Below the pieces are notes generated by a model. It was not told where the DNA came from. It made no database searches and saw only the letters and a program-made list of their open reading frames with translations. Made by a program: the position numbers and the translations under genes. A stretch of DNA of 64,000 nt from NCBI GenBank assembly GCA_019685555.1, contig JABFQN010000008.1, forward strand, positions 1 to 64,000, written 5' to 3'. Source of the DNA: Candidatus Bathyarchaeota archaeon A05DMB-3 (GTDB taxonomy: Archaea > Thermoproteota > Bathyarchaeia > Bathyarchaeales > Bathycorpusculaceae). Positions 330-27,010 of the stretch are shown in pieces. Position 1 is the first letter of the stretch. Every line of letters begins with the position of its first letter.

Positions 330-353
330 CGCTTGTCTCTGATGTTATTATTG

Positions 354-3180: not shown

Positions 3181-3208
3181 AATTCTATTAATAGCAACTA
3201 ACAGAATA
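3181..3208. repeat. 28-bp dif-like site a
   Basis: Left arm AATTCTATTAA, 6-nt centre TAGCAA, right arm CTAACAGAATA. The arms are an imperfect inverted repeat matching the family consensus TGTTCYRTTAA / YTRAYRGAA. It lies between the toxin gene end and the cas6 promoter region. Confidence 0.6.
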
Positions 3209-7804: not shown

Positions 7805-7818
7805 TGTCTACTCATTTC

Positions 7819-9070: not shown

Positions 9071-9081
9071 TATGTAGTCAC

Positions 9082-9095
9082 CCTATTTAAATAGG
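9082..9095 (-). promoter_or_regulatory. TATA-like palindrome before the effector operon
   Basis: CCTATTTAAATAGG is a perfect 14-bp palindrome that contains a TATA box (TTTAAATA), 12 bases before the first effector gene. It is close enough for a very short or leaderless mRNA. Its symmetry could also let it serve as an operator. Confidence 0.45.
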
Positions 9096-9162
9096 ACATC
9101 TTCTACTTTTAAAATTTGCCATCAAATAAGAGCTTAACAGATGAATCATTTAATAAACGGAG

Positions 9163-9807
9163 TTAGTTTTGTTGGCATGTTTGTTTGTGTCCGCATCCTC
9201 CTTGGCATTTGTTTTGGGCTACTCTTATGGGTGGAAGCATCTCCTCCCTAATTATCCTTTTAATATGCCCAACAACTCTCTTCACATAACTCTTCATCGA
9301 AGGCGTTATCTCAAACTTTAAAATTAACTGTTCAGGAACATAATTTACAAAACCACGCTTAACCACTGTGCCAAAGTTTTCCTCCATAAGCAAAGCATAA
9401 GCCACAAGCTGATACTTATGATCCATATAGGCTTTACCCTTATCAGAGTTCATGTTCTTGTACTCGACTGGAATGTATTCGCCTTTAACTGTCTTTATTA
9501 TGCAGTCCACTACGCCTTGAAGCTGTAGGCTCTTTGAAACAAGGGGAACAAAAAGAAGTTTCTCAGCGCCCACAAATTCGGGTGAATAATAAACCGCATC
9601 CTTCCGCCTTAACTCTTTACGCACATACTCTATATGCAGTTCTTGGCTTTCCTCCTGCTGAGAACCAAAAACAGGCTGAGCGTGCAAAACACGGTCAAAA
9701 TACACAAGCCTAGGACAATAAACATAATGTTTCACATCGGTAACCGAAACCAACGGTTCTGCAACGTCTGAAATGGGCAAACTCTGCCGTTTTTCAGCCC
9801 CACTCAT
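9163..9807 (-). CDS. cas4: Cas4 exonuclease
   Basis: RecB-like Fe-S exonuclease that helps select PAM-proximal prespacers during adaptation. N-terminal Cys in HYVYCPRLVYF (about residue 31) plus three C-terminal Cys in KCQGGCGHKQTC bind a 4Fe-4S cluster. The nuclease core is visible as VDCIIK, PVEYKN (ExK) and QLVAYALL (QxxxY). It has 214 residues. It overlaps the preceding PIN gene by four bases, so it is co-transcribed with the toxin-antitoxin pair and cas1-cas2. A second Cas4-like protein (Csa1) heads the operon. Confidence 0.92.
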   Translation of the reverse strand: MSGAEKRQSLPISDVAEPLVSVTDVKHYVYCPRLVYFDRVLHAQPVFGSQQEESQELHIEYVRKELRRKDAVYYSPEFVGAEKLLFVPLVSKSLQLQGVVDCIIKTVKGEYIPVEYKNMNSDKGKAYMDHKYQLVAYALLMEENFGTVVKRGFVNYVPEQLILKFEITPSMKSYVKRVVGHIKRIIREEMLPPIRVAQNKCQGGCGHKQTCQQN

Positions 9808-10337
9808 TCCTTATTCTTTCCCAGCTTTTCTATGTTTTCTATGATTTTTGCGTATGTTTCAACGCTGCATCTCCACCCAGCGGAAATCATGTCGTTTATT
9901 GCCTGTTTCGCCTCCCGCTTTGTAATAAGTCCTTGAGATATCGCCTTTACCAAAACGTATGGGGTTCCAGCGTAGGGTATCCCGTAGATTTTTGCTGTTT
10001 TTCTCGCAACTTCATCATCTATTATGGCTTTTCCGCCACGTTCTTTTGCTGTGGCTAGAACTTCAGCGTCAGTCACATGAAGCCCCTTCGTTTGTAGAAG
10101 AGTTTCAAAGAAACCTACATTTCTAGGTTTTACAACTTTGAAAATATCCTTTTGAAACAGCTTTTCCAAAATTATGGCGTCTGCAAGACCCTTGCGCTTC
10201 CCCTTATCCACAACCTCGCGTTTAACGCTTGGAGAAGTGAATTTCTCGCCTTTCAACTCTTCGAATATTCGGCTTAACCCAATTTTCGTTATGTAAATTA
10301 ACGGGGTCGAGTTAAACACGAGCGGCTTCATGTTCAC
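9804..10337 (-). CDS. PIN-domain toxin (DUF3368) inside the cas operon
   Basis: A 177-residue PIN ribonuclease with VFNSTPLIYITKIG at the N-terminus, ...TDAEVLATA, and IIDDEVARKTAK as the late acidic motif, followed by the GTPYVLVKAI.QGLITKREA segment common in DUF3368. It overlaps UPF0175 upstream and cas4 downstream by four bases each. The pair is thus fully embedded in the adaptation operon between cas2 and cas4. Expected: RNA-cleaving toxin neutralised by the UPF0175 protein. It is a distant relative of the PIN protein at 2618-3124. Confidence 0.82.
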   Translation of the reverse strand: MNMKPLVFNSTPLIYITKIGLSRIFEELKGEKFTSPSVKREVVDKGKRKGLADAIILEKLFQKDIFKVVKPRNVGFFETLLQTKGLHVTDAEVLATAKERGGKAIIDDEVARKTAKIYGIPYAGTPYVLVKAISQGLITKREAKQAINDMISAGWRCSVETYAKIIENIEKLGKNKE

Positions 10338-10666
10338 TCCGTCGCACTTGCTTCTTTAAACTCTTTATCAATTTCCTCTGGCGAATATCGAACCCACTCA
10401 ATGTTGCGTTGCTTCACCAAGTCGGCGAACTCCCAAAGCGAAAGCTTGGCAATTTCAGCAGCTTTGGCAAAAGTAACTTTTCCATCGCGCAATAGCTCCA
10501 AGGCTGTTTGTTTTCGCCATTCGCTTATGCCCAATTCAAGAAGATTCCTAACAACCGTAGCCTTATCTAAGCCCTCCCGTTCCACAACCTCCTGAATTTC
10601 CTTCTCGATTTCTTCTGGAACTCTTACGGCTAAGGGTTTAAGCGTCAAGCCATTCACCGTAAACAA
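10334..10666 (-). CDS. UPF0175-family antitoxin inside the cas operon
   Basis: A 110-residue protein: RVPEEIEKEIQEVVEREGL (ribbon-helix-helix-like) and then AAEIAKLSLWEFADLVKQRN, the UPF0175 signature. It is followed with a four-base overlap by its PIN partner and preceded 35 bases earlier by cas2. Predicted antitoxin and autoregulator, which would place part of the cas operon under toxin-antitoxin control. The intergenic gap before it may contain an internal promoter, but I see no clear TATA box. Confidence 0.8.
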   Translation of the reverse strand: MFTVNGLTLKPLAVRVPEEIEKEIQEVVEREGLDKATVVRNLLELGISEWRKQTALELLRDGKVTFAKAAEIAKLSLWEFADLVKQRNIEWVRYSPEEIDKEFKEASATE

Positions 10667-10701
10667 ATGATATCAAACGCATACATAAAAGTTGCGCTCA
10701 G

Positions 10702-10992
10702 TCAAAAATAGGCTATCTTTTCTTTTCCTTCCTTAAGCTCATATTTCTTCGGTTTACCAACCTCGCGTCTACCCTTAAAGCATGTGTCGCAGACCGGGTA
10801 AAGCTGAACGTTTTCCACCAGATCCTTAATTAAATTCTTCAAGTCCACTATTAGACTGTTTAATTCGTCACGGCGCAGACTGCCGATAAACGCGCTGTAC
10901 TGAATTCTCTGCAACCCATAATCTTTAAGCGTTTCAGCCACCAGAGTCCGCAAATTATCATCAGTAATATCATAAATCACCAAATACCGCAT
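10702..10992 (-). CDS. cas2: Cas2 adaptation protein
   Basis: A 96-residue ferredoxin-fold protein that bridges two Cas1 dimers in the spacer integrase. It begins MRYLVIYDITDD, the Cas2 strand with the conserved Asp, then LKDYGLQRIQYSAFIG and the second strand VQLYPVCDTC. It starts 6 bases after cas1 ends, so translation is coupled. Length and motifs are typical. Confidence 0.93.
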   Translation of the reverse strand: MRYLVIYDITDDNLRTLVAETLKDYGLQRIQYSAFIGSLRRDELNSLIVDLKNLIKDLVENVQLYPVCDTCFKGRREVGKPKKYELKEGKEKIAYF

Positions 10993-10998
10993 TTCTTT

Positions 10999-12033
10999 TC
11001 ACCAGCCCAAAGCAAACGGCACATAATCAGTTTCGCGTAATAGAAAACGTGTCACACGCCGTGCTTGATGATGAATAAAGCCTTTAATGGAACCTCGTTG
11101 CCCGTCAAACATAACCTCCGTGTCAAGGCGTTCCTGAAAGCCTTCTAGTAGGGTTTTAATAGCCTCTCTGCTTAGAACTCTGCCCTCTTCTACAGCCTCG
11201 GCAACAATAATCTCGTCAGGTTTAATTACATTCTTCGTTATCAAGCTGGTGAGGGCTCTATCCACGACTTGCTGTCGAAACTCCTCCATCAAATCCAAAA
11301 CAAGCGAAGGCTTACCCGGCCTATCCGCATGCAAATATCCCGCGTAAAAGTCTAAGCCAGCATAGCTAACGGCTTTCCAAACTTCAGGAAACAAAATTGT
11401 CTGATAACCAAAATTCAACATAGCATTAAATGGATCACGCGCTCCTCTTGTTTCTCGTCCGGTAAACTCCAACTCTGTTGGCAGAACTTGACGTATCGCT
11501 TCCCAATAGAAGCGAGCGCCCTCAGCTTCTAAATTCATTAAATCTTGACGCTTATCATCAATTCTCAAACCTTGTTCTTTCTCAACTTTACTATTGATTT
11601 GGTCGATAGCCTTGCCAGCCTCGTAAAGCTTCTCAGAAAGCGCCGGATCTGTTTGGCGCCTGTTTTTCGCCATCAACTTCAACAAGTTTGCCTGATTAGT
11701 AAGCTTTCCAGAAACGAACTTTTTGGCTAAAATAAAGCCTCTTTCATCGTTGTAGGCTATGAACTGTTCCCTGCGGGCTCTAACAGAACCCGTCATCGAA
11801 GCAGGCATCAAAACGGCGTATGGCCAACCGTTGTATCTGGCAAAAACCACTTGAATATTGTTTTGGACAGCCAGATTTAGAGCGCTTGCGGAAAATGCAA
11901 CACCAGACGAGCAGCAAATTATAGAGTCAACGTCATCCGCAACAATTTCCTTAGCTTCACCTTCTTTTTTCACAATAAAGCGGTTCCTCTTCCTTCCCAA
12001 GAAAATGCCGAAATCATCTAAGAAAATCCTCAT
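10999..12033 (-). CDS. cas1: Cas1 spacer integrase
   Basis: Metal-dependent integrase for new spacers. The N-terminal beta domain starts MRIFLDDFGIFLGRK. The helical catalytic domain carries Glu in NLEAEGARFYWEAI, His in GYLHADRPGKPSL and Asp in LVLDLMEEFR. The ATG at 12033 is preferred (344 residues) because AAGGTGG stands 5 bases upstream and it lies just after the csa1 stop; a longer frame from 12081 would overlap csa1. Confidence 0.95.
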   Translation of the reverse strand: MRIFLDDFGIFLGRKRNRFIVKKEGEAKEIVADDVDSIICCSSGVAFSASALNLAVQNNIQVVFARYNGWPYAVLMPASMTGSVRARREQFIAYNDERGFILAKKFVSGKLTNQANLLKLMAKNRRQTDPALSEKLYEAGKAIDQINSKVEKEQGLRIDDKRQDLMNLEAEGARFYWEAIRQVLPTELEFTGRETRGARDPFNAMLNFGYQTILFPEVWKAVSYAGLDFYAGYLHADRPGKPSLVLDLMEEFRQQVVDRALTSLITKNVIKPDEIIVAEAVEEGRVLSREAIKTLLEGFQERLDTEVMFDGQRGSIKGFIHHQARRVTRFLLRETDYVPFALGW

Positions 12034-12050
12034 AAGAACCACCTTGCGAT

Positions 12051-12947
12051 CTATTCGTAGCAAACTCTGAAATACATGCAATCTTCTTTACATTGAGAAC
12101 GTTCTGGTTTGCCTGGATCTTTTCCTTCAGCTACAATCCCCAACTTTTTGTCTCTTTCTTCGATCCACCACTGCCTTAACTCATCGCTAGCAAAGAACAG
12201 ATCTCTACGCACCAAAACCTTTCCATCTTTAACATCAAGGTAGACGTTGCAGCAAACATCCACCGGAACCTCGTGGACACTTTCAAAGACAAGCGCGTAG
12301 CCTACTGGCGAAAGTCTATGCCATTCTTGTGGTTCACTTGCCACTTTCAAATCGAACATTATCGCCTTCAAATAGTCATAACAATCCAAGCTTAGAATGC
12401 CGCTTAAGCCAAGCAGCTCGCCAGAAATCTTGTGCTCAACAAGAAACGGCAGAGCTGAAGCCACCAAATCAAGCTCTGAGGCATATGGCTGCCGACTGGA
12501 AACCTCAGCTAAACGCGCTTCACAGATTTTTTGGAGAAAATCCCAAACTTTTCTGGACGACTCCTTCAAGTTTTCAGGCTTTTCATTGATCTCAGACCAT
12601 CGAATGGTCTGCCACCAAGACTCAAAATTGATGCCGAGCCGTTGAACAAACGCCCTTAGACAGTCGCTGACAACTCCGTGAAGAATTTTACCCAAAGCCA
12701 CTTTACCACTGGGAACGGGCGAAATTTTCTCTACGTAACGCAGATAAACATCACGGTTTGTAGGGCAATACTTTGAGCACACCGCATACATGGGCAACTT
12801 AACACTATCGTAATAGGGCTTTAATGGCGGTTGATGCCAACTCCAACCCCGCAACTCCTTGCTAACGCCAACCTCACGGGCAGTAGGCAAAAGCTGATAA
12901 AGCAAATATTTATGCTCAACATCCGATAGGAAATACAACCCTACCAA
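12051..12947 (-). CDS. csa1: Csa1, Cas4-like adaptation protein of type I-A
   Basis: Fe-S nuclease-like protein of the Csa1 (Cas4-2) family, known mainly from type I-A loci. Cys pair in AVCSKYCP (about 57-61) and C-terminal CKEDCMYFRVC (about 287-297) supply the cluster. A central FDLKVA...VGYALVFE segment resembles the RecB-like core. Homologues usually begin M(Y/F)FL..EE..YLL, so the TTG at 12938 (giving MYFLSDVEHKYLL) may be the real start. It is the first gene of the adaptation operon and diverges from the CRISPR array. Its presence marks the adaptation module as I-A-type. Confidence 0.88.
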   Translation of the reverse strand: MVGLYFLSDVEHKYLLYQLLPTAREVGVSKELRGWSWHQPPLKPYYDSVKLPMYAVCSKYCPTNRDVYLRYVEKISPVPSGKVALGKILHGVVSDCLRAFVQRLGINFESWWQTIRWSEINEKPENLKESSRKVWDFLQKICEARLAEVSSRQPYASELDLVASALPFLVEHKISGELLGLSGILSLDCYDYLKAIMFDLKVASEPQEWHRLSPVGYALVFESVHEVPVDVCCNVYLDVKDGKVLVRRDLFFASDELRQWWIEERDKKLGIVAEGKDPGKPERSQCKEDCMYFRVCYE

Positions 12948-13074
12948 CCATCAAAAAGCCTATTTCCGATTATCTTTATAAATTAAATTGCATCCTAATA
13001 ATAATCGAAAATACATATCAAAACTAAACCCGAAAACGGTCTTGAACGACAAACCCGTCAAAATAAGCCCACGG
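12948..13074 (+). promoter_or_regulatory. CRISPR leader and divergent promoter
   Basis: AT-rich 127-base gap between csa1 and the first repeat. TTTATAAATT near 12975-12983 can act as a TATA box in both directions: leftward for csa1, rightward for the array. The repeat orientation (3' end ATTGAAAG on the plus strand) places the leader here. No extra degenerate repeat is seen. Confidence 0.55.
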
Positions 13075-13340
13075 GATGCAGAGCAAAAATCCCAATAAAG
13101 GGAATTGAAAGCTATACAAGCAACAATCTCCGTTTTTGTGGAGATACTCTAGGATGCAGAGCAAAAATCCCAATAAAGGGAATTGAAAGGCCTCGATTTT
13201 GCCATTACTGCTTAGCCAGTAACCATTGATGCAGAGCAAAAATCCCAATAAAGGGAATTGAAAGGCATACCATTTAAAGCATTACAATTTTCCGATGTTG
13301 GGCGATGCAGAGCAAAAATCCCAATAAAGGGAATTGAAAG
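13075..13340 (+). CRISPR. CRISPR array, four 37-nt repeats and three spacers
   Basis: Identical 37-nt repeats at 13075-13111, 13153-13189, 13228-13264 and 13304-13340. The repeat begins GATGCAGAGC and ends GGGAATTGAAAG. Its middle, AATCCCAATAAAGGGAATT, allows a short TCCC/GGGA hairpin. The last ~24 nt resemble the Sulfolobus-type repeat ending AATTGAAAG. Spacers are 41, 38 and 39 nt (13112-13152, 13190-13227, 13265-13303) and match nothing else in this window by eye. Transcription should run rightward from the leader at 12948-13074. The last repeat is not degenerate. Confidence 0.97.
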
Positions 13341-15367: not shown

Positions 15368-15395
15368 TGTTCCGTTAACGATGATTAATGGAAAC
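15368..15395. repeat. 28-bp dif-like site b
   Basis: Left arm TGTTCCGTTAA, centre CGATGA, right arm TTAATGGAAAC. It lies just after the toxin-antitoxin pair and 14 bases beyond the 3' end of the FAD oxidoreductase gene, on its far side from site c. Confidence 0.65.
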
Positions 15396-15409: not shown

Positions 15410-16537
15410 TTACGGTGGGAGAAATCTGAGTTTTTCTGGTGGTAGTATTTTGTTTATTTGGTTGGCTATTAGCATGTGTAGTCCTCCTTTAAGCATGTTT
15501 AGCGGTGACAAGCTTCTTTCGAGTTCATTATTTGATGAGAGTCTTTTCATCTGCCTTTTAGCATTCGTCTCTATTTTCTTTACAAATTTTTTCATGTGAT
15601 GTTCGTATGCCTTTGCAGCTTCTGAGCCTTCTTCTTCAGCCTTTGTTATGGCTTTTACTGCCAGTCGTCCGCTGAGGGCGGCGTTATCCATCCCCACGCC
15701 TCGATATAAGTCAACTAAGCCCGCAGCATCCCCAAGAAGTAATACTCTTCCTTCACCCAAAAATACGGTGCTTTTCAGTGTTGAAGAGAACCCTTCTTTT
15801 TTGACGATTTGGCCGCGAAGCCCATACTTTTCTTTAACATAGTTGAAGAATCTGTCAGCGTATTCTAGCGGGTTTTCGTTGGCGCCAGTGCCGATAACCC
15901 ACTTGTCATCCTTCAAGTAAACCCATGCAAACATTAATGGGCAGAACTCTCGTTTATAGAACATATAAAGCGTATTTGGGTCCAAATTTGCCTCTCCAAC
16001 AAAATAATAGTTTACCGTCGCCCCTGAGGCTTTTTTATCGAAATCTTGTGGTCGCAGTTTCTTTCTAACCCTTGAAAGCATTCCATCAGCGCCAATAAGA
16101 TAGTGAGCCTTAACTTCCCTATGCTCCCCTTCCGCCGATAATTTAACGATTATTTTGCCTTCGGTTTTATCCGCAACAAAATCAATTAGGGAAGTATTAT
16201 CGTGAAACTCTGCGCCAGCATCTGCTGCTAACGAGTTAAGCCAACTGTCAAAAGTGGATCTCCAAAAATTCAGCATTTTCATTCTGCCTTTCAAAACCTT
16301 ATCCTTCGGAGTGATAATCTCCACTTTAAAGAGTTCGTTTCTGCAAAGCTTCTCCCTGGGTATTTTCTCACCAATAAGCTTTTCAAAATATTGAAACTGA
16401 ATTCCAGAACAAGGCTTATTTCGTGGAGTCTTAAACTTCTCAACTAACAAAGTCCTAAAACCACTTTTAGCAGCAAACCTTGCAGCAACAGAACCAGCCA
16501 CACCCCCACCCACAACAACCACATCATACTTTTCCAT
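15410..16537 (-). CDS. FAD-dependent oxidoreductase, geranylgeranyl-reductase family
   Basis: A 375-residue flavoprotein. The FAD-binding Rossmann motif VVVGGGVAGSVAARFA is at the N-terminus (about 6-21), with IGADGMLSRVRKKL in the middle and the second FAD motif LLLGDAAGLVDLYRGVGMDNA near residue 285. CSGIQFQYFEKL is the Cys-containing segment common in archaeal geranylgeranyl reductases, which saturate isoprenoid chains of ether lipids. The relatives also include other hydroxylase-type FAD enzymes, so the substrate is open. GGGTGA is 5 bases before the ATG at 16537. The gene is alone between sites b and c, as one cassette would be. Confidence 0.85.
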   Translation of the reverse strand: MEKYDVVVVGGGVAGSVAARFAAKSGFRTLLVEKFKTPRNKPCSGIQFQYFEKLIGEKIPREKLCRNELFKVEIITPKDKVLKGRMKMLNFWRSTFDSWLNSLAADAGAEFHDNTSLIDFVADKTEGKIIVKLSAEGEHREVKAHYLIGADGMLSRVRKKLRPQDFDKKASGATVNYYFVGEANLDPNTLYMFYKREFCPLMFAWVYLKDDKWVIGTGANENPLEYADRFFNYVKEKYGLRGQIVKKEGFSSTLKSTVFLGEGRVLLLGDAAGLVDLYRGVGMDNAALSGRLAVKAITKAEEEGSEAAKAYEHHMKKFVKKIETNAKRQMKRLSSNNELERSLSPLNMLKGGLHMLIANQINKILPPEKLRFLPP

Positions 16538-16591
16538 ACCGCTCACCCTAGGTCAATATCCATCTCATTCTCCTATGCTACAAAAATATAG

Positions 16592-16619
16592 CTTTCCGTT
16601 AAGAGACACTAACAGAAAC
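16592..16619. repeat. 28-bp dif-like site c
   Basis: Left arm CTTTCCGTTAA, centre GAGACA, right arm CTAACAGAAAC. It lies 54 bases upstream of the FAD gene start and downstream of the next minus-strand gene. Confidence 0.65.
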
Positions 16620-16662: not shown

Positions 16663-16968
16663 CTATACTGAAAGAAAAATTATCAGCTGTGTAATGAGTA
16701 TTATTGCGGCAAAGAGAACAACCGTTGTCTTCTTAAGCCTTGGAATAGTCGGCTTAATCTCTCTCAATATTCTTTCCTGAATTGCTTTTACTTCTTCTAA
16801 TGGAACTGAATCGGGATGGGCTTCCCTTAAAGCGCCTGACTTGTCTAAGTTATATAACACTGGGCCGTAAAGTCGCGTTTTCCTTCCGCGAACGATTCTG
16901 ATAACAAAAATACCAGTAATAATTAAAGTGTTAATGAAGGAAAGCACCACCGCTTCAAACAACTGCAT
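16663..16968 (-). CDS. Small two-helix membrane protein
   Basis: About 101 residues from ATG 16968, which has GGGTGAT a few bases upstream. It has an N-terminal hydrophobic segment (AVVLSFINTLIITGIFVI), a charged loop containing RGRKTRLYGP and an amphipathic helix, then a C-terminal segment (TTVVLFAAIILITQLIIFL). No family is recognised. It lies between sites c and d together with a second tiny membrane protein. Confidence 0.6.
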   Translation of the reverse strand: MQLFEAVVLSFINTLIITGIFVIRIVRGRKTRLYGPVLYNLDKSGALREAHPDSVPLEEVKAIQERILREIKPTIPRLKKTTVVLFAAIILITQLIIFLSV

Positions 16969-17234
16969 CAACATCACCCGTTTATAAACCAGCAATGACC
17001 AAAATATATGTCTTAGTTTTTCTTTGATTATTTTGTTTATAAAAAATAGAAAAGGGAAATAGGCTGAAACTGTTCATGGACACTGATAAGTAACAACACT
17101 CAGCACGGTCATTACCGCCATAAGAATAAATGCTAAAAACTTTAGATTGAAAAGGACTAAGACAAACTAAGAATATCATCAAAACTCAAGTTTTCTGTTA
17201 ATACCATCTGAGTTTCCTGCCCCCACCATGTTAC

Positions 17235-17500: not shown

Positions 17501-17528
17501 TGTTCCATTAATAACGTTTAATGGAAGA
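17501..17528. repeat. 28-bp dif-like site d
   Basis: Left arm TGTTCCATTAA, centre TAACGT, right arm TTAATGGAAGA. It overlaps the stop codon of the 51-codon frame on the minus strand (17508-17663). Confidence 0.65.
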
Positions 17529-17663
17529 TGGTTTTATTTTGTTGACTTTTTGAAGCAGGTTAATGTCGGCAAAAGCTTTGAGGGCTGGCGTGAAGCCCAC
17601 CCGCGTTAGCTGAGGCTTGGCTGACCCTGCCAAACGTGTAGGCATAATCTTAGCTTCTAACAT
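17508..17663 (-). CDS. Possible 51-residue basic protein between two dif-like sites
   Basis: ATG 17663 to TAA 17508, minus strand. It begins MLEAKIMPTRLAGSAKPQL and is rich in Lys/Arg. A TATA-like CATATATAAAGG (complement of 17711-17723) stands about 50 bases upstream, and the start codon lies inside a 27-nt palindrome (17659-17685). The reading frame continues upstream to 17753, but the palindrome and promoter spacing favour the short form. It fills the 245-bp interval between sites d and e. No family recognised; may be non-coding. Confidence 0.3.
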   Translation of the reverse strand: MLEAKIMPTRLAGSAKPQLTRVGFTPALKAFADINLLQKVNKIKPSSIKRY

Positions 17664-17710: not shown

Positions 17711-17896
17711 CCTTTATATATGCACGTTTTTGGTTTTTCAAAATTTTTTCCAAATGGTTAATGTTTTCGTCGTGTTCTATTAATTCGTATTAACAGAACA
17801 TAAAATCCATAGTTTTGCTAAGCGGGGGCGAAGTTTTACATTTGAGATTAGTTATTAAAAATTGAAAACTGCGTGGGCATAGAGAGTATAAGTATA
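17711..17896 (-). repeat. Recombinase-upstream module, copy C
   Basis: On the minus strand, in order: TATACTTATACTCTC (about 17882-17896), a C-rich patch, dif-like site e about 85 bases later, then GGAAAAAATTTTGAAAAACC and TATA-like CATATATAAAGG. The same order and spacing occur at 18310-18545 and 25525-25745. Copy B there is the upstream region of a recombinase pseudogene. Confidence 0.55.
17773..17800. repeat. 28-bp dif-like site e
   Basis: Left arm TGTTCTATTAA, centre TTCGTA, right arm TTAACAGAACA; arms inverted with one mismatch. It is part of module copy C. Confidence 0.7.
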
Positions 17897-18309
17897 TTTT
17901 AGAATACGTGCCCCCTAGGGGGATGTGGGGTCTGCTTTTTGCATTTGTTCATTTGGAAGTGGCGTTCGTGTGATGATTTACGTACATGCAATTTGATGTG
18001 TAGGCTTTTGAACATTATCCATCCGGGTGTTTGGCTGGGTTTTATTAGTGTTAAGGTTCCAACGGAGACTATGTAGTTTGGATGTGATGAGTAGGCTTTT
18101 TTGCCTCCTTTAGGAAGGGCTACGTCTACAACTTCCAGTCAAGACTTAAAGCATAAACTGCTGTCCTATGCATCTTCAGATTCGGCTACACTTCACCTTG
18201 AAGATTTTGCTGACCTTACCATCCACACAGGGAAGCCAATGAAAATCTATTTAGAAAAATAGAAAATGCGTTGGGGCTTCCCCACTGCCCAAAGCATGTT
18301 AGAATTATA

Positions 18310-18545
18310 TACTTATACTCTCTCTGTTTCGGCGTTTTTGCTTTTTGAGCGGTTTTTTCTATTTAGAAAATTCCCTCCCCGGAGTTTTCAGTCATGAAAG
18401 ATTATGTTCTGTTAAATAATGTTAACAGAAACCACCAAAAGATTATATATTTAGAAAAATTTCAAAAAGCCAAAAAAACCTGTATATAGAGGTTTTTACG
18501 GAAAGGACAATTTTGCAGCCTATTTTTCATTATTTACTTATTAGA
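18310..18545 (+). repeat. Recombinase-upstream module, copy A (orphan)
   Basis: TATACTTATACTCTC at 18310-18324, dif-like site f at 18405, then TTTAGAAAAATTTC AAAAAGCC and GTATATAGAGGTTTTTACGG. It aligns with copy B (25525-25745) through about 18545, but no recombinase follows, so the gene has been lost or the module moved without it. Confidence 0.55.
18405..18432. repeat. 28-bp dif-like site f
   Basis: Left arm TGTTCTGTTAA, centre ATAATG, right arm TTAACAGAAAC. It is part of module copy A. Confidence 0.65.
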
Positions 18546-18696
18546 AAACTAAAACACCCCGCCCAATGTTGGATTACCCCAAAGTTTGATCGTTTCCTCT
18601 ACTCGACAGTTTTATTGGGAGACAACTTGAAACTCTCACCAGTGAGACTTTTCAGAGTGCACGGCGACTCCTCTCTAAGACAGTGATAGCCCAAAA

Positions 18697-18844
18697 TTAT
18701 AACGCGCGTTATAAAAATTAAAGCTCAGAACATAATTGTTATAACACACGTTATGACACGCGTCATGAAGACTTCGCAAATTAGAAACTGTCCTCCTCTT
18801 CTTGCTTGACTTATGTCTTGACCGCGTCTATTACGCGCGTAATA
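18697..18844. repeat. Cluster of four related palindromes
   Basis: TTATAACGCGCGTTATAA (18697-18714) is a perfect 18-bp palindrome. TTATAACACACGTTATGA (18739-18756), TTATGACACGCGTCATGA (18751-18768) and TATTACGCGCGTAATA (18829-18844) are close variants. Four copies of a CG-centred, AT-armed dyad in 148 bases suggest a multi-site protein-binding region such as an operator array or replication-origin iterons of a mobile element. No adjacent gene explains it. Confidence 0.6.
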
Positions 18845-19019
18845 AAAACTTAACCATAGATGTGCATGTCAGACGCAATATCCTTCACCTCATAAATGAC
18901 CTCTTTTACAAAGTGTAGCTAATGCCGCTGAGAAACGCTAAAACATTCAATCCGAGGCCGTCAATAAGTACAGAACCTGACTAAAAACAGTTAAAGTTAA
19001 CACTTTCTTCAAATCAAAA

Positions 19020-19035
19020 CTCTTAACGTTAAGAG
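19020..19035. repeat. 16-bp perfect palindrome
   Basis: CTCTTAACGTTAAGAG, an isolated perfect palindrome about 180 bases after the palindrome cluster. Possible protein-binding site. Confidence 0.4.
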
Positions 19036-19700
19036 TATTCCCAACTATAAGAAGACAATTTCAAGGTCCGGTATTCGTTCTCGAATGCGGTCAGCAAACA
19101 TGCACTTCCATTTCTAAGCCATAATCATACAGTCTCAGCGACTTTATTCTACACATAGTGAAATGTCCCATATAACTATAAGCCTCCTTTCTATGCAACT
19201 GAACTTATATCAAGCATAGAAAGAGTAAACTAAAAAGGAACCATATAAGGTGATTTAATATGTTTATAAGGCGCATTCTCACCCCATGTGAGACTTTTTT
19301 TAACTGAAGGCACAATCTGTAAGCTGTCATGTTTAGGAAGCTTTAAACCAAGCTTCAGTTATCCCATTTTAGCACATTTTTTCATGCAATAACGCATTAA
19401 CCTAGGAAAAACATAAGTAGTCCTGCAGCTTTCGAAGGATAATTTAAAGCGTTCAGCAGAAACAAAACCAGAACACTAGTATGCGTTAAAAATCGTTTTT
19501 TAACTGAATTTTTAACTAAACTCCATCGTAATTTTTAACTCACTCCAAACAAAAGAGAAAAACATGCTTTCTGTGGAAAAGCAGAGTTCAATTTCTTTTT
19601 CTTTCCATTAGCATGTGTTAATTTTAAATAGATCCGAAATAAATAAATCTGGATGAACATGCCAAGTATTGAAGTGCCTTTATACTTCTGGCTTGAAGCA

Positions 19701-19714
19701 CGCCCGAGGCTTTA
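19701..19714 (+). repeat. Putative attR: copy of tRNA-Thr 3' end
   Basis: CGCCCGAGGCTTTA, identical to 299-312. The 11 bases before it agree only partly with the tRNA T arm. It lies five bases beyond the stop codon of the M20 peptidase gene and would mark the right edge of a 19.4-kb integrated island. Confidence 0.45.
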
Positions 19715-19718
19715 CGTC

Positions 19719-21140
19719 TTATAGCATTTTTGAGAGGTTGTCTAGGATGGCTACATAGGATTTTTCGAGGGCTTTTAGGCCTCCTGTTGGGCCTCCTTCT
19801 TCGACGACTAGATATTCGTTTGGTGCGTGGGCTCTTGCTCCGTGGCCTATTCCGCCCATGACGAAGGGTAGGTTTAGGGGTTCGCGATTGAACATGCAGA
19901 AGGGGGCGCTTCCAGCCATGTGGGGCCATATTTCTGGTTCGTAGCCGAATTCGCGGTAAGTTTTCAGTATGGCTTGGACTGCTGGTTCGCGGATGTTTGT
20001 CTTAGCCCATCCGTAGCCTTCTTCCAGCTGCACTATTTTTATTTCTCTGAAGCCATTTTCGTCCAGATGTCTTCTTATTTTTGGGATAACCTCTTCAACC
20101 GTCATGTTGGGTACAAGGCGTACGTCTATCTTGGCTGTTATTTTGTGGGGTAAAACTGTTTTTGTGCCTGGTCCAGTGTATCCGCTCCATATTCCGTCTA
20201 TGTTTAGGGTTGGCGAGTAAAGATATTTTAGCAAAGCTTCTTTCCCGTGGACGTCGTTTGTGAAGCGTTCAACTTTCATCTCTTTTTTGATGGTTTCTTC
20301 GTCGAAGGTTTTCTCCAGTTTTTCTATTAGCTCTAGGTCTTCTGGGCTTGGCGGAGCCACGTTTTCGTAAAAGCCTTTCACTAAAACTTTGTTTCCGTCT
20401 TTTGTTGTTAAGGTGCTTAGGGCTTGTATCATTCTTAGCGCTGGGCTGTCAACCCAAGCCTTGTTGCTTCCATGAATGTCGAATTCTGTAGGTCCATAAC
20501 CCCAGCTTTTTCCGTTGAGTTCCAGTTCGAAGTAGACTATTCCCTTAACGCCTAGAGTCATTTGAACCTTGCCTTTCTCGTCTTGGTCCGCTGTTGGAAA
20601 GAAGACGGCGTCTGCCTCTTTCAGTTTATCCATATATTTGTTTATGAACTCTGGGAGGTGGCGGCTTCCAAGCTCTTCCTCTCCTTCAGCTACAAAAATT
20701 AGGTTCAGCGGGATTTCTTCGCCCACGGCCTTTATAGACTCGCAAGCGTTTAGGAAGGCTCCAAGCTCGCCTTTAGTGTTTATTGCGCCCCTTGCAACTA
20801 GACATTTGCCGAAAGGTTTCATCTCAACAACATGCCCTTCTAGTGGAGGAACAATCCAGCCCGGCTCATCCACAGGTTGTGTGTCATACATCATGTAAAT
20901 TATCACGGTTTTATCTTCGCCAGCGTCGTAAAAACCGTAAACCACAGGATTGCCTGACGTTTCCACAAGTCTGGCATCTTTACAGCCTAAACTCTTTAAA
21001 TAATCTCTAATAAGTGCGGCGCATTCGCGGATTCCAAGGTTTTCAGCTGAAATTGAGGGTTGTCTAACAAGTTCCTTTAAACGGTTAAGGTGTTCTTCAT
21101 AATGTTCTTCGATGTATTTGAAAACTTTTCCCCTATTCAT
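19719..21140 (-). CDS. M20-family metallopeptidase
   Basis: A 473-residue zinc-peptidase-fold protein related to carboxypeptidases and dipeptidases. Visible landmarks: MMYDTQPVD (about 82-90) where most M20 enzymes have GHxDxxP; the second metal segment ARGAINTKGELGAF; catalytic/metal AEGEEELGS; and late HAP in GARAHAPNEYL. The bridging Asp, Glu pair and late His are kept, but the first His ligand is Met. This subgroup may bind metal differently. The dimerisation domain lies at about 205-330. It stands alone, convergent with the island's right edge. Confidence 0.85.
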   Translation of the reverse strand: MNRGKVFKYIEEHYEEHLNRLKELVRQPSISAENLGIRECAALIRDYLKSLGCKDARLVETSGNPVVYGFYDAGEDKTVIIYMMYDTQPVDEPGWIVPPLEGHVVEMKPFGKCLVARGAINTKGELGAFLNACESIKAVGEEIPLNLIFVAEGEEELGSRHLPEFINKYMDKLKEADAVFFPTADQDEKGKVQMTLGVKGIVYFELELNGKSWGYGPTEFDIHGSNKAWVDSPALRMIQALSTLTTKDGNKVLVKGFYENVAPPSPEDLELIEKLEKTFDEETIKKEMKVERFTNDVHGKEALLKYLYSPTLNIDGIWSGYTGPGTKTVLPHKITAKIDVRLVPNMTVEEVIPKIRRHLDENGFREIKIVQLEEGYGWAKTNIREPAVQAILKTYREFGYEPEIWPHMAGSAPFCMFNREPLNLPFVMGGIGHGARAHAPNEYLVVEEGGPTGGLKALEKSYVAILDNLSKML

Positions 21141-21241
21141 TGTAATTCACCTTTAATGGTTCCTAAATATTTACGCACATTTTAATAAAGGGTTTTTGGA
21201 ATCATGCTCTGGATAATTTAATATATGCAATTTAAGATTTA

Positions 21242-21967
21242 ATGAAGATTAGAGGGAAAGTTTTGCCCTTGGATGACCCCCTAACCATCGCGTTGATAGT
21301 TACAGCCATAGGGGTGATTCCCGCGTTTTTCATAATTTTTTATGCCATGAGGAAACGATGGAGAAAGGAAGAGCGGGTTGCAGAAGAGAAGGTAGAAATG
21401 GAGGCAAAAAGTTTGCCTTTCAAAGTTGTTAAGACGGTTTCTCAGGAAGAGGCTGCGAGGGCAAGGGAAGAGCTCAGAATATTGGATTTGGAGAGGGAAA
21501 TACTGAGCGACGCTATTAGAAGGCTTTATGAGGCGCATGCTGAGGGCAAAATAACTGAAGAGGAGAGGGAAAGGCTTGCGCAGACCTATAAGGAGAGGAT
21601 GATGTCCGTTAAGGAAGCCATCTCAAAAGACGAGTCTCTTGTGGCGTTACACGAGCTTGAAGCCATGCAAGAAGACTTAATAAAGCTTTTCAGCGAACGC
21701 TTCGACGAAATAAGCGGCAAAATTGAGGAGCTTCGCTCAAAGGTTGAAGCAAAACCCATAAAAGAGATAACGATACCAGCAGTAGCCAAGCCCGCCAAAC
21801 CAGCAGAGAAAGCGGAAAAGCCGGAAGCAGAGGAAAAGGCGAAAAAGAAGAGAAAGCCGCCAGCTAAGCCTTCCCCAAGAACAGAAGCTGAAAAGCGTAT
21901 AGAAGAAATTAGGGCTGAAGTGGAAAAGGTTTTGGAAAGACTGGGGCAGATGGAAATTGAAACCTAA
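21242..21967 (+). CDS. Membrane-anchored coiled-coil protein
   Basis: 241 residues: an N-terminal transmembrane helix (ALIVTAIGVIPAFFIIFYA, about 13-31), then a long Glu/Lys/Arg-rich coiled coil (about 60-170), an Ala/Pro/Lys linker (KPAKPAEKAEKPEAEEKAKK) and a short C-terminal helix. Probably cytoplasmic with a single anchor. It overlaps rpiA by 11 bases, so the two are co-transcribed. No function is recognised. Confidence 0.7.
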   Translation: MKIRGKVLPLDDPLTIALIVTAIGVIPAFFIIFYAMRKRWRKEERVAEEKVEMEAKSLPFKVVKTVSQEEAARAREELRILDLEREILSDAIRRLYEAHAEGKITEEERERLAQTYKERMMSVKEAISKDESLVALHELEAMQEDLIKLFSERFDEISGKIEELRSKVEAKPIKEITIPAVAKPAKPAEKAEKPEAEEKAKKKRKPPAKPSPRTEAEKRIEEIRAEVEKVLERLGQMEIET

Positions 21968-22670
21968 AAAGGAAGAGGATGTGGAAAAAGCCAAAAGAAA
22001 CGCGGCGTTGGAAGCCGTAAAACACGTTAAAAACGGCTTTGTGTTGGGGCTTGGAAGCGGAAGCACAGTAGCCTATGCCGTTGATGAAATGGGAAGAAGA
22101 ATAAAGGCTGAACACCTTCACGTGAAAGTTGTTCCCACTTCTTATCAAGCTTTCCTGCTCGCTGTTAAAAATGGCATCCCAACAACAACATTGGAGGAGC
22201 ACATCACTCTAGACTTGACGATCGACGGAGCAGACCAGATAGATGAAAACTTAGACCTAATAAAGGGTATGGGGGGCGCCTTAACCCGTGAAAAAATAGT
22301 CGCTGCAGCGTCTAAAAACCTCATAATAATTGCAGATGAACGGAAAAAAGCTAAAATTCTAGGGGAAAATGGTCAACAAGTGCCAATAGAAGTCGTGCCC
22401 TTTGCTTCACGGTTTGTAATTAAGAAGGTAGAAGAACTTGAAGGGAAACCTAAAATAAGGGAAAGCACAGGGAAGGTTGGGCCGGTTATAACTGACAATG
22501 GGAACTTCATAATTGACGTTGATTTTGGACTTATAAAAGATCCAGCTAAGTTGGAAAGGAGGTTGAAGGCTATTCCAGGGGTTGTTGAAACTGGACTTTT
22601 CGTTGGTATGGCTGACATGGTTTATTTAGGTAAAAAAGTGGGTGTTGAGAAGCTGGAACGTAAAGGATAA
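21957..22670 (+). CDS. rpiA: Ribose-5-phosphate isomerase A
   Basis: Interconverts ribose 5-phosphate and ribulose 5-phosphate in the non-oxidative pentose phosphate pathway. GLGSGSTVAY (about 32-41) and DGADQIDENLDLIKG (active-site Asp-Asp region, about 88-102) followed by GGALTREK with the catalytic Glu are all present. Its 237 residues are normal. It starts with TTG at 21957 inside the end of the coiled-coil gene. Confidence 0.95.
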   Translation: MKPKKEEDVEKAKRNAALEAVKHVKNGFVLGLGSGSTVAYAVDEMGRRIKAEHLHVKVVPTSYQAFLLAVKNGIPTTTLEEHITLDLTIDGADQIDENLDLIKGMGGALTREKIVAAASKNLIIIADERKKAKILGENGQQVPIEVVPFASRFVIKKVEELEGKPKIRESTGKVGPVITDNGNFIIDVDFGLIKDPAKLERRLKAIPGVVETGLFVGMADMVYLGKKVGVEKLERKG

Positions 22671-22688
22671 CGCTGTGCGTAAAACGGT

Positions 22689-24221
22689 TTAGAAGTCGTA
22701 AAGTTTTGAGTATTTCTCTTCAAGGTATTTTATGTATGGTTTGACGTCCAGTTCTTTGTCTGTTATTTTCTTTATAAGGTCTGCTGGATCGTAGAGATTG
22801 CCATATCTATGAACATTGTTTACAAGCCAACTTTTTACTGGGCTGAAGTTTCCACGGCTAATTTGTTCTCTCCAGTTGGCTTGTTCTTTTTCCATTTGCA
22901 CTAGAATTTGCCCGCTGTATATGTTGCCTAACGCGTAGCTTGGGAAATAGCCGAACAATCCGCTGGCCCAATGGGTGTCTTGCATTACGCCTTCTGAGTC
23001 GTTTTCGATGGTCAAGCCTAAATAGTCTTTGTAGTTTTGATTCCATATTTCGGGAAGTTCTCCAACGCTTATTTTTTCGGCGAAAAGGTCTCTTTCAATG
23101 TTGAAGCGTATTATTATGTGGAGGCAGTATGTCACTTCATCTGCTTCAACTCGAATTTTTGAAGGTTTCACTTCATTTACTGCGTGGACAAAAGCGTTGA
23201 GGCTTACATCTGATAAAATGTTGCCTGTGATTTCCTTAAGTTTTGGCAGGAAATAGCTCCAAAACTCTTTTGATCTTCCAATGATGTTTTCTACAAAGCG
23301 GGACTGGGACTCGTGGAATCCCGATGAGCATGCTGTGCCGACGGGTTGGTAAATCCATTCTGGGTTTAGGTTTTGCTCGTAAATGGCGTGTCCAGCCTCG
23401 TGTAAGACTGAAAATATTGAAGAGGCAAAGTTGTTTTCATGGTAATGGGTTGTTATGCGCACATCGTCGTAATAGCCCGTTGTGAAGGGGTGTTCAGTTT
23501 CGTCGATTCTACCTCCAGCAGTGTTTGATTCTATGTCGTATTCAACGGTTTTGGCGAGTTCTTTTGCGATTTTGCGTTGAATTTCTATAGGGACTCTGCG
23601 CTGTAGAATGCTTGTGTCCGGTTTTTTCAGAGAAGCCTCGCATTTTCTCAATAGCAAGACAAGTCCCTCTTTTAGTTCGCCGAAAACTTTGGCTATGGCT
23701 TCAGCTGTCATTTTCGGCTCAAAAATGTCGATTAACGCGTCGTAAGGCGTTTTTGTCTGCTTAACTTCCATTAAGATTTCTGCAGCTTTCTTTTCTAACT
23801 CTAAAAGTTTTTCAAGTTCAGGTTTAAACATGGAAAAGTTTTTTGCAGCCTTTGCTTTTTTCCAGACATCTGTTGTTATCGCCCGCTGTTTTGCTATTGC
23901 CGCGACAAGTTCTTCTGGAAGCCTTGTCTGCTCATCATACTGCTTCTTTATTAAGTATATGTTTCTCTTTTGAATATGGCCCAGCTCTTCGTAATGTGGA
24001 CTGCGCATTATGTTGTCGAGCAGTTTCCCAATTTCAGGATCCGTGCTCATTCGATGCTCTATTGCACTAAGCAAAGCAAGCTGTTGACTTCTAATGTTTA
24101 TGGCTTTAGGAGGCATCATCGTCTCCATATCCCAATGTATAATGGACACGGCAGACTGAAAAATCAGCAAGTTCTTGACTTTATCCATCAGTTTCTTATA
24201 GCTGGATTCTAACACTTCCAT
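22689..24221 (-). CDS. M32 carboxypeptidase (Taq/Pfu type)
   Basis: Zinc metallocarboxypeptidase of the thermostable carboxypeptidase family, removing C-terminal residues from peptides. The HEAGHAIYEQ motif (HExxH, about residue 272) is followed by GFHESQSRFVEN with the third ligand Glu. Also visible: the N-terminal HWDMETMMPP motif and VRVEADEVTYCLHI, typical of M32. Its 510 residues are normal for the family. It ends 18 bases after the rpiA stop, convergent. Confidence 0.93.
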   Translation of the reverse strand: MEVLESSYKKLMDKVKNLLIFQSAVSIIHWDMETMMPPKAINIRSQQLALLSAIEHRMSTDPEIGKLLDNIMRSPHYEELGHIQKRNIYLIKKQYDEQTRLPEELVAAIAKQRAITTDVWKKAKAAKNFSMFKPELEKLLELEKKAAEILMEVKQTKTPYDALIDIFEPKMTAEAIAKVFGELKEGLVLLLRKCEASLKKPDTSILQRRVPIEIQRKIAKELAKTVEYDIESNTAGGRIDETEHPFTTGYYDDVRITTHYHENNFASSIFSVLHEAGHAIYEQNLNPEWIYQPVGTACSSGFHESQSRFVENIIGRSKEFWSYFLPKLKEITGNILSDVSLNAFVHAVNEVKPSKIRVEADEVTYCLHIIIRFNIERDLFAEKISVGELPEIWNQNYKDYLGLTIENDSEGVMQDTHWASGLFGYFPSYALGNIYSGQILVQMEKEQANWREQISRGNFSPVKSWLVNNVHRYGNLYDPADLIKKITDKELDVKPYIKYLEEKYSKLYDF

Positions 24222-24644
24222 ATATAGATCTCCAAACTGCTAAAGAGTAGGGATTAAGCTAAAACCTTATTTTAGCTTTAACCCACAAAAGCAAACTCTG
24301 GAGGACATTTGACAAGTTAATGTTTTTTAGGAAGCGCATATGAAAAGTGTATCGTGGCAGTCCAAAAAGTTGCCGGGTAGCCTATTTGCGCTGAAATTAT
24401 GGATTTCCCCCGCAAATCCTCTTTTTCTGTTAACAGCGACTATTAGAAGTCATCAAGATTTATTGTGGCATTTCGGGCATTTTAGGTAGTAGGCTGTTTT
24501 AGGTGTTTGAGTTGGGTCTGGTTTTGGATGAGGCATGCTGGGATGAGATGGGCATAGCCGCTGAAATGTTTCACAAAGATAAGCTTGAGCCGAGAAACAT
24601 TAAAATTTTGACAGCAATGAGGAGATACGAATTTCATTTTTTAC
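24222..24644. other. Intergenic region around dif-like site g
   Basis: Apart from site g (24423-24450) nothing firm is seen. A 66-codon frame at 24503-24703 overlaps the end of the opposite gene and lacks any recognisable domain. Confidence 0.4.
24423..24450. repeat. 28-bp dif-like site g
   Basis: Left arm TTTTCTGTTAA, centre CAGCGA, right arm CTATTAGAAGT. The 6-base centre is identical to that of site i at 34739. Confidence 0.6.
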
Positions 24645-25091
24645 TCAAGGTCTTTGACTCTTTAACTTGGCATGGATTCTGGGCAGAAAGTATGATAGCA
24701 TGAAGGCTATTAAAATTGTGATAATAATGAATAATGTTGCTACTTCCAGAATGAGGCTTCCAGTGATAACGTATCCATAAACAATAATTCCAAGGGATAC
24801 AGCTCCGAAAATCACTTCTAAGAACCTTTTTGCTCCTCCAAGTTCACTCTTAATGTAATACGAAAAGAAGAGCGAAATATTTCCAAATGCGATAGCCAAC
24901 CCAAAAACCATCATAACGATATCTCCAGAAAGAAAACCGCTCAAGAACATTGAAAAGCTCAGCATTACCCAAATACCCCAGCCAACTTGAACCCATCTAT
25001 CTATGCTCCTTCTGTAGAGCTTATAAGCTAAATATGAAAAGGTAGCAATTGATGTGAAGAACAAAGCAAGAAAAACAATGACCATGTCCAT
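24645..25091 (-). CDS. Multi-pass membrane protein
   Basis: 148 residues with four to five predicted transmembrane helices: MVIVFLALFFTSIATFSYL, a second around VGWGIWVMLSFSMFLSGFL, then IVMMVFGLAIAFGNISLFF, a fourth within EVIFGAVSLGIIVYGYVI and a fifth around ATLFIIITILIAFMLSYFL. A basic loop (LYRRSIDRW) follows helix 1. Unknown family. It is the only intact gene between sites g and h. Confidence 0.6.
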   Translation of the reverse strand: MDMVIVFLALFFTSIATFSYLAYKLYRRSIDRWVQVGWGIWVMLSFSMFLSGFLSGDIVMMVFGLAIAFGNISLFFSYYIKSELGGAKRFLEVIFGAVSLGIIVYGYVITGSLILEVATLFIIITILIAFMLSYFLPRIHAKLKSQRP

Positions 25092-25614
25092 ACAAAATCA
25101 CCTATTGAACACTCCTCTTCAAGCACCACACTGTAATTTTGTATTTTCAAAATAAAAACATTTCACATTATATCAACATCAACAATACTCTTAAATCTGG
25201 GAGTAAAAATCTCTTCATCCTGTAAGCTTATATCCAAAGTCGAAGTTAAGAGTTTAAAGCCTTTGCGGTGGAGGCCCCTTTAGATAGTTAGCTTTTAGTT
25301 GTTTCTGGAGTAATCGGCTACTTTATTTTACCCGCGCCCATTGAAAGGATGGTTGGTGCAGCAGCTTTAGCCTTGGCATTGCATACTACGTTCGCGTCAA
25401 AATTTGACCACCATGTCAGCGTATTTTCTAGGTCTAGGCATAGACAGAGCCACCTAAGAGGAAAATTAATAACAAACTAACTTTGATGAGCACAACCCCC
25501 ATTTTGTGGCTGAAAAATATACTTATACTCTCCATGCCCCCGCAAAAATTAATTATTTAACAGGAAATCCTAATAAGAAACACTTCCGTCTGGTTTTTGG
25601 CTTATGGAGTTTTA
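25092..25614. other. Intergenic region with a possible gene fragment
   Basis: An open stretch at about 25288-25479 (plus strand) encodes a hydrophobic segment containing GVIGYFILPAPIERMVGAAA and ends in a basic tail; it lacks a promoter and homology, so it is probably a remnant. Module copy B begins at 25525. Confidence 0.35.
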
Positions 25615-25745
25615 TGTTCTATTAACACTTCTTAATAGAACAGCCCAAAATGCCATTCTTAATAGAAAATTTTTCAAAAAGGCTAAAACGCCCAGAAATA
25701 AAGAGGTTTTCAGCCATACTATTTTTGGCTTCCATTAGATTTTTC
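25525..25745 (+). repeat. Recombinase-upstream module, copy B
   Basis: TATACTTATACTCTC at 25525, dif-like site h at 25615-25642, then TTAATAGAAAATTTTTC AAAAAGGC and AAATAAAGAGGTTTTCAGCC. It ends at the start of the recombinase pseudogene, so it is the natural context from which copies A and C are recognised. Confidence 0.6.
25615..25642. repeat. 28-bp dif-like site h (perfect inverted arms)
   Basis: Left arm TGTTCTATTAA and right arm TTAATAGAACA are exact reverse complements around CACTTC. It is the best example of the family, about 110 bases upstream of a recombinase pseudogene. Confidence 0.75.
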
Positions 25746-25751
25746 TATTGA

Positions 25752-26676
25752 ATGATGCAACAATCGTCATCAGAAATAGAGGAATTCCTATCAGCCCTTA
25801 GACCTGGAACCCGCCATATATACGCTAGGGGCTTGACCACATTCCAAGAGTTTTTGACTGCTCAAGGGTTGGACGTTGCCGGTTTCTTAAGGCTTGTTGA
25901 GGAGGACTTGCATAGGCCTAGGCTTCGAAAACCCGTGTAGCTCGCAAAACCCTAAACGCCTTCATCATCTACTTGCAGGACAGAGGCTATGCGCCAAAAT
26001 CCATAAACACTTATGTGGGAGCGGTTCAGTCGCTAGCCAAGTATTATGACATCCCTATCAGTATGCGCTTTATCAGCAGACCGCCAGCCAAAGCAGTTCA
26101 CAAAAAGCACCCATGGACTATTGAGGAGATAGGCATGTTTACGTCGTTAATGGACAACATTCAATACAAGTGTGTGGCAGCTTGCATCGTCCAAAGCGGT
26201 TTGAGCATATCGGATCTCTTAGGTCTGAGATACGGTGACATAAAAGGCGAATTTGAAAAGGGTATTACGCCACTCTGCTTGGGCCTTTCTAGGAAGAAGA
26301 CAAACATACCCTTCTTAACATTTTTGGGCAGCTGGGCTTTATCCCTTTTGAGGCGGCATTTGGATGGCAAAAACCTACAGGATGAAACGCCTTTATTCAC
26401 TGTTTCCACGAGGGCTGTGGATGGCTATTTTGCGAGAACAGCTACAAAGTTTAGTGGCGGAGAATTTGAGGGTAGAAACCCATACAGTCCTCATTCGCTT
26501 AGGGCTGCTTTTAGGATGATTCTCAGCGATCACAAGGTTGATCCGCTTTACATTGAGTTTTGGATGGGCCACAAGGTTCCAGAACAGCAATCGCCTATGT
26601 CAGTAAAAGCCGCGAAGGCTGGAGGGAAACATACCGCACATTGGCTGAGCCTTGGCTGACACCAAAACAAGCCTAA
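25752..26676 (+). pseudogene. Tyrosine recombinase pseudogene with two frameshifts
   Basis: The first part (25752-25940) reads through SALRPGTRHIYARGLTTF and ...VEEDLHRPR. Shifting one frame near 25925 continues as KTRVARKTLNAFIIYLQDRGYAPKS into 25973-26590. A second shift near 26591 is needed to reach AYVSKSREGWRETYRTLAEPW and the stop at 26674-26676; the lost part contains the presumed catalytic Tyr. HSLRAAFR (HxxR) and WMGHK are present, but the usual catalytic Arg is Ser in SGLSISDLLGL. It is related to, but distinct from, the intact recombinase at 354-1550 and lacks its zinc ribbon. Confidence 0.8.
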
Positions 26677-27010
26677 ACTCATTTAATGTCCTCTAACCTG
26701 AGTTTTTGAATGGAGTTTTCAAATCATTCGATAAACTGTAGATCCACATCTCCGCATTTTAGCAACTACTCACCTAAGTCTACTTTAAGCTGAAATTTTC
26801 TGAGGGCATGCTTGACTATGGCGTCTGCCCAGCCCGAAAACAGAAAAAAGGGAATTTGCGGGAGATTTCGCCATAATGTGGCAGGTTCAAATACCAGCTA
26901 CCCACCAATACCGTGGCCAAGAGCGCTGGGGTTAGAGCAGTCTTTTTTACCGTGTCTCACCAAACCTTTTAAACATCTGCATTAAAGAATAAGAGATGTG
27001 AAGATGGAAA
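26677..27010. other. Intergenic region before the radical SAM gene
   Basis: No gene seen. TTTTAAAC near 26967-26974 is a plausible TATA box, about 40 bases before the radical SAM start. A tRNA T-loop-like GGTTCAAATACC at about 26883 has no supporting stems. Confidence 0.4.

Follow-up and report, generated by a model that had tools for sequence, protein, structure and literature searches.

In engineered recombinase-mediated cassette exchange, two incompatible lox or FRT sites flank a cassette and a double crossover swaps the cassette. Among natural systems, the dif modules of Acinetobacter plasmids (pdif) consist of genes lying between 28-bp dif-like sites with 6-bp spacers, and replacement of one module is possible if its spacers match on both sides (PMC13141974). 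These sites are plasmid-borne, alternate in orientation (C/D, D/C), show no set order of spacers and depend on the XerC/XerD proteins of the host for recombination (PMC13141974). Integrons, archaeal ones included, are built of a tyrosine recombinase gene and an attI site that head an array of diverse accessory genes, and arrays without the recombinase are common (PMC9668308). The archaeal XerA/dif system uses a site of two arms separated by a 6-nt spacer, dif being the site of dimer resolution (PMC2958812, PMC8371274); the word cassette does not occur in the text of the review PMC8371274.

The window analysed here, a stretch of 64,000 nucleotides from a Bathyarchaeia genome, carries three copies of a short module at 25518-25740 (forward strand), 18308-18545 (forward) and 17896-17711 (reverse), as the original prediction had proposed. 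The 1.46-Mb assembly contains a 15-mer (TATACTTATACTCTC) in exactly three places, each within one of these modules, while its reversed control does not occur at all; the distance from the 15-mer to the palindromic site that follows is 84, 84 and 83 bp. Pairwise blastn aligned the modules at 68.5% identity (203 bp, E 2e-18), 64.9% (194 bp, E 9e-14) and 63.1% (203 bp, E 7e-10), a likeness that is not due to chance. The first module, with its site at 25617-25640 (spacer CACTTC), is the promoter module of a recombinase gene and shows 74% identity with genome G096, starting at the site. The other two had been described as lacking the recombinase, and indeed no recombinase reading frame was found at either of them. 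The forward orphan (site 18407-18430, spacer ATAATG) is 82% identical to the module that follows a site of class D, defined below, in G100:C7. The inverted orphan (site 17775-17798, spacer TTCGTA) is adjoined, on the opposite strand, by a remnant of a recombinase 3' end at 17563-17636 (forward), 75% identical over 64 nt to the pseudogene behind the first module (E 8e-8) and with 73% identity across 71 nt to the intact L114 gene. We considered that the inverted pair at 17.7 and 18.3 kb might be a local invertible promoter subject to phase variation and rejected it, as the two spacers differ; the same arrangement exists in G083 and suggests array architecture.

The 28-bp site of the module is a dif-like palindrome made of 9-bp arms around a 6-bp spacer, and it also occurs outside the module. 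Nine copies with at most two mismatches were found in the window, against 1.6 expected even at three mismatches. The pattern derived from the arms, TTCYRTTAR-N6-YTAAYRGAA, has 12 exact matches in the source genome and none when reversed. Exact copies occur in 23 genomes out of 163 in the order and in 24 out of 257 in the class, the reversed control giving a single site overall. A set of 93 sites was picked by their arms (at most one mismatch) with the spacer disregarded, and 71 of them carried one of six exact spacers, which define the classes E (CTGCAA), A (CAGCGA), B (CGATGA), C (GAGACA), D (TAACGT) and P (CACCTC). These spacers are common to different genera, and class C was also found in a genome of another order (G242). 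The sites of orphan P modules (17775 and 18407 in the window; L135, L134 and L076) have the same arms and all differ from one another in their spacers, in contrast to the sites of classes E to D. A viral origin was discarded: exact A and C sites were found in no viral contig and exact B sites in one, and the 22 scattered matches to a looser E pattern were taken to be chance.

Along the DNA, the classes follow each other in the order E-A-B-C-D-P, in one orientation and with spacings of typically 0.6-5 kb that enclose different genes. Among 65 neighbouring pairs at most 6 kb apart, 54 were exactly the next class, compared with a mean of 5.5 and a maximum of 15 in 5000 label shuffles, a statistic that counts arrays as independent although orthologous arrays share ancestry. 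The two sites had the same orientation in 62 of the 65 pairs, in contrast to the alternation seen in Acinetobacter. A complete recombinase-E-A-B-C-D array was found in G100:C12, B-C-D-P-recombinase in G096:C1 and two tandem arrays in G096:C3. The position of P was assigned from two D-P pairs and from orphan modules behind D in G083, G099, G100 and the window. One B site is flipped (G100:C15), and in one A-B cassette, present at both loci, site B points one way at L073:3751-3774 and the other way at L079:4796-4819; B may be able to flip, the centre of its spacer (AT) being symmetric.

We consider it highly probable that the modules mark the end of a cassette-exchange system, in which ordered heterospecific sites allow genes to be swapped slot by slot between chromosomes. 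The module would be the terminal (P) element of such an archaeal array. A tyrosine recombinase would bind the common pair of 9-bp arms and swap strands across the 6-bp spacer, which would need to match, and a crossover at each of the two sites bounding a slot would replace its gene or genes with those of the corresponding slot in another array. Because the spacers differ and always follow the sequence E, A, B, C, D and finally P, a slot could be swapped without scrambling the rest. One recombinase subfamily reads into E (or A), its last codons providing a half-site, and a second starts just beyond P, divergent from a small gene for a probable DNA-binding protein. The principle of single-module replacement is already known, since it is documented in Acinetobacter plasmids (PMC13141974), and the likeness between the two systems lies in this replacement with matching spacers, seen here in six cassettes between same-class sites. 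What sets the archaeal arrays apart from Acinetobacter is the fixed order of the addresses, their single orientation, the chromosomal archaeal setting and a linked recombinase with a site in its coding end, together with near-symmetric arms and six conserved spacers. Unlike in integrons, cassettes could not simply excise or join anywhere, because each slot has its own address. In its working the system would resemble both dif modules and integrons, without being a case of either. Compared with engineered cassette exchange, the archaeal system is natural and places five to six addresses in series. Our literature search, to which preprints and most subscription papers did not belong, found no account of archaea that naturally exchange cassettes at heterospecific sites.

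The gene that follows the first module is a tyrosine recombinase (PF00589, E 9e-9) that survives as a pseudogene (recombinase 2; 25752-26680, forward) with at least two frameshifts, its reading frame being broken at about 25935 and 26590. It is the sole member of its family in the source genome, where five more tyrosine recombinases are intact and none is a close relative. Family members include L111:8533-9498, L114:9665-10603 and 25973-26656 in the window; those of G077:C9 (322 aa) and of L114 in G096:C3 are intact, and other members are often frameshifted. The genes are physically joined to the sites. In seven copies, a degenerate left arm is made up of the last codons and the stop ([GA]TTTAG or near it), and the E spacer and a well-matching right arm come next. 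The recombinase end in G077:C9 has the same half-site layout but carries the A spacer; in G073 the matched recombinase core is followed after 9 bp by a perfect A site. A weak candidate for a decayed half-site (CTCATTTAATGTCCTCTAACCTGA; 26678-26701, forward) occupies the same position at the 3' end of the pseudogene, with six mismatches. In an integron this position belongs to attI, and in an integrated element to attL; integrons likewise have a recombinase gene adjoining an attI-like half-site at the head of diverse accessory genes. However, the integron-integrase model TIGR02249 did not match the two linked recombinases at E <= 0.1, and folded attC sites are lacking, the sites being by direct inspection 24-28-bp palindromes with a 6-bp spacer. 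The AlphaFold2 model of an intact recombinase (pLDDT 84) matched XerA, Tn1549 Int, Cre and IntI in Foldseek (E 6e-8 to 2e-6), with TM-scores of about 0.4 that are probably explained by a different placement of the two domains. The HSLR (HxxR), GH and Tyr residues are kept, and the position of Arg I is occupied by Ser in all eight aligned members (SGLSxSD versus GLRxSE). It is mainly this substitution that keeps us from presenting the family as the established catalyst: its activity is not assured, and another recombinase might act on the sites.

One candidate would be the host XerA/dif machinery, which would recombine the sites as XerCD does for the Acinetobacter dif modules, the linked recombinase being a passenger. 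The sites are dif-like in their arms and 6-bp spacer and the recombinase fold is alike, Arg I is missing from the linked family, whose genes are often frameshifted, and the source genome encodes XerA-like proteins, one of them in the window (333-1550). We nevertheless find this unlikely. The arms are missing from most genomes of the order, nearly complete ones included, and thus are not the general dif of these archaea; exact sites number zero in 233 of 257 genomes of the class and are many per genome where found, whereas a dif would be expected in every genome with XerA. Unlike dif again, they number up to about 20, fall into six spacer classes and enclose gene cargo. Moreover, the linked recombinase genes end in a site and their distribution tracks that of the sites: the family profile matched mainly in site-holding genomes (Fisher p 4e-5 for co-occurrence, phylogeny disregarded). 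Against a role of the linked family, no recombinase was detected in the site-bearing genomes G079, G086, G087 and G121.

Exchange was assessed by an all-against-all blastn of selected stretches of the genomes, which yielded 330 internal match ends. As many as 35 of them fell at same-class sites in both sequences, compared to 1 of 6600 random positions, and at these ends similarity stopped at most 12 bp from the sites in both sequences. Six cassettes matched exactly from site to site. The E-A cassette is 92% identical between G083 and G100, for 75-78% in the common flanks outside the array. One A-B cassette is common to G096:C3, G077:C2 (98%) and G100:C12 (88%), and another to G100:C15 and G096:C1 (93%). 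The B-C cassette of the window is 84% identical to that of G095:C2 and ends at both sites, and the other neighbouring genes showed no protein match between these two loci, except for a weak one that is not collinear. Different cargo can also occupy one locus: G083 and G096 share 2.6 kb at 96% identity beyond C, and their B-C contents have no match.

The strongest evidence for exchange comes from junctions resolved at the base level, which place the crossover within the spacer. Site A of G077:C2 is a composite: its left flank and left arm are those of G096:C2 (TTCTGTTAA), its right arm and the cargo behind it are those of G096:C3 (TTAATGGAA), and the spacer between them, CAGCGA, is identical in both parents. 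At site E, flanks were found in the pairings left1-right1, left1-right2, left2-right2 and left3-right1, and at several junctions the only shared sequence is the 24-bp site. Strand exchange within an overlap of 6 bp would leave junctions of this kind, and a full replacement would then proceed by two such crossovers. The junctions are hard to reconcile with cassette replacement by homologous recombination in the flanks, in which the sites would merely mark conserved regulatory sequence. Homologous recombination and lateral transfer do occur in these genomes and some flanks are nearly identical, but the arms switch parent at the spacer and similarity ends beside the sites, and we hold this explanation to be very improbable. 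Some genome pairs, for example G077 and G096 with flanks 99.7% identical, may reflect mis-binned contigs, a risk that arises because the genomes are fragmented and probably mostly metagenome-assembled.

Relatives of the module were found in G096 (two), G078, G095, G097, G100, G083 (two) and G099. In G096 (twice), G078, G095 and G097, which belong to other genera, the same recombinase subfamily begins directly behind the module. Copies without the gene also exist in G083 (two), G100 and G099. In G099 the module precedes the recombinase 3' end alone, the gene being internally deleted, so modules without a gene can arise by loss. The original prediction further held that the module had been duplicated or scattered by recombination; random scatter does not apply, because the orphan copies of the window end an ordered array after site D, back-to-back as in G083. 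It had also described the module as the recombinase's own site and promoter. Both parts are upheld, but the description was incomplete, since a second gene diverges on the other side. The wider pattern of ordered heterospecific sites around exchangeable genes lay outside that prediction. This gene, which encodes 169-176 aa, reads away from the module, opposite to the recombinase (G096, G083, G099, G078). Its protein was modelled as two short helices followed by long helices (pLDDT 80) and gave weak Pfam matches throughout (e.g. ParG, E 0.013); it is probably a ribbon-helix-helix protein that would bind DNA. With the recombinase on one side and the small gene on the other, the module is a divergent promoter region. 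From sequence, the TATA-like element about 80 bp to the right of the site is a predicted promoter element of the recombinase, and the reversed 15-mer (TATAAGTATA) a putative TATA box of the small gene. The window keeps only a 16-aa trace of this gene (25450-25403, reverse), a weak match of 81% across the 16 aa (E 1e-5, search restricted). Each end of a 1.24-Mb contig (G096:C1; L123, L124) carries an outward-facing copy of the order D - small gene - P - recombinase, the two copies being inverted relative to each other and 95% identical. A general promoter repeat was rejected, the 15-mer being confined to the locus and the relatives of the module preceding the same recombinase subfamily. That the palindromes are transcription-factor operators is hardly credible: operators are typically palindromic and the module holds divergent promoter-like elements, but B, C and D sites often lie between gene ends and not in promoters (the one at 15370 has the stop codon of a neighbouring gene on either side), each class keeps its spacer and cargo changes at the sites.

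Read as part of this exchange system, the window is an array B-FAD gene-C-110 aa-D-P'-P plus a decayed second array A-P-recombinase pseudogene. The first probably starts at a site with exact arms and spacer TAGCAA (3183-3206, forward), which is E-like by inference, or strictly at B, and runs to the two orphan modules. A sister site at C1:44 (spacer CAACAA) shares its flank with the E sites of G083, G097 and G100. Sites B (15370-15393), C (16594-16617) and D (17503-17526), all forward, have exact arms and class spacers; B and C are cassette boundaries, B in common with G095:C2. Between B and C lies a gene for a FAD-dependent oxidoreductase resembling geranylgeranyl reductases (15410-16546, reverse; PF01494, E 1.5e-21), and slot C-D holds a 110-aa protein with no Pfam match (16663-16995, reverse). 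The recombinase 3' remnant, inverted module and forward module that come after D are the mirror image of G083:C2. In the second array, a remnant of the motif found upstream of recombinase 1 (CCCGCAAATCCTCTTTTTC) is joined to site A (24425-24448), together spanning 24401-24448 (forward); recombinase 1 of G097 and G077 has this motif in front of it. Site A is followed by the collapsed A-P slot with a 148-aa protein lacking a Pfam match (24645-25091, reverse), the small-gene trace, P and the recombinase-2 pseudogene. A stray copy of the recombinase-1 motif lies at 26850-26872 (reverse; compare L021/L125), and a further site A at 34741-34764 (forward) has two arm mismatches and a right flank that matches the right flank of a G083 E site from the site onward. 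The locus looks decayed in the source genome, with a recombinase that does not work as it stands.

The commonest Pfam families among 87 cargo proteins are methyltransferases (6), NosD/beta-helix proteins (4) and GNAT acetyltransferases (3), with FMN reductase and HAD hydrolases as further families. Transposase and recombinase families are absent from the 25 commonest, rarer ones lying outside this count. E-A slots hold a type IIG-like restriction-methylation protein in G100 and a type II DNA methyltransferase in the source genome (C1). If the proposed mechanism is true, it constitutes a gene-exchange route particular to a group of archaea that is abundant and mostly uncultured, and it parallels in nature the engineered exchange at heterospecific sites, with six mutually distinct natural spacers. 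The arms and spacer class provide a rule for locating variable genes in Bathyarchaeia-type genomes, such as methyltransferases, surface proteins, restriction systems and possibly a CRISPR-Cas locus. With an addressed array, an Arg-I-less recombinase, six ordered heterospecific sites across archaeal genera and defence cargo, we lean towards viewing it as a third natural type of gene-capture platform, next to integrons and dif modules. A long tandem-repeat array, with units of about 66 bp that are about 68% alike, was seen inside a reading frame near an E site of G097:C3 (L085:9762-10793). In the window, a CRISPR-Cas locus (Cas6, Cas3b, Cas7b, Cas1 and others at 3268-12947, repeats near 13074-13340) stands between the E-like site and B, and may be cargo. 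At the contig end, tRNA-Leu and tRNA-Pro genes (45-309) adjoin the intact XerA-like recombinase, which has a C-terminal zinc-ribbon-like part; this locus is possibly another integrated element.
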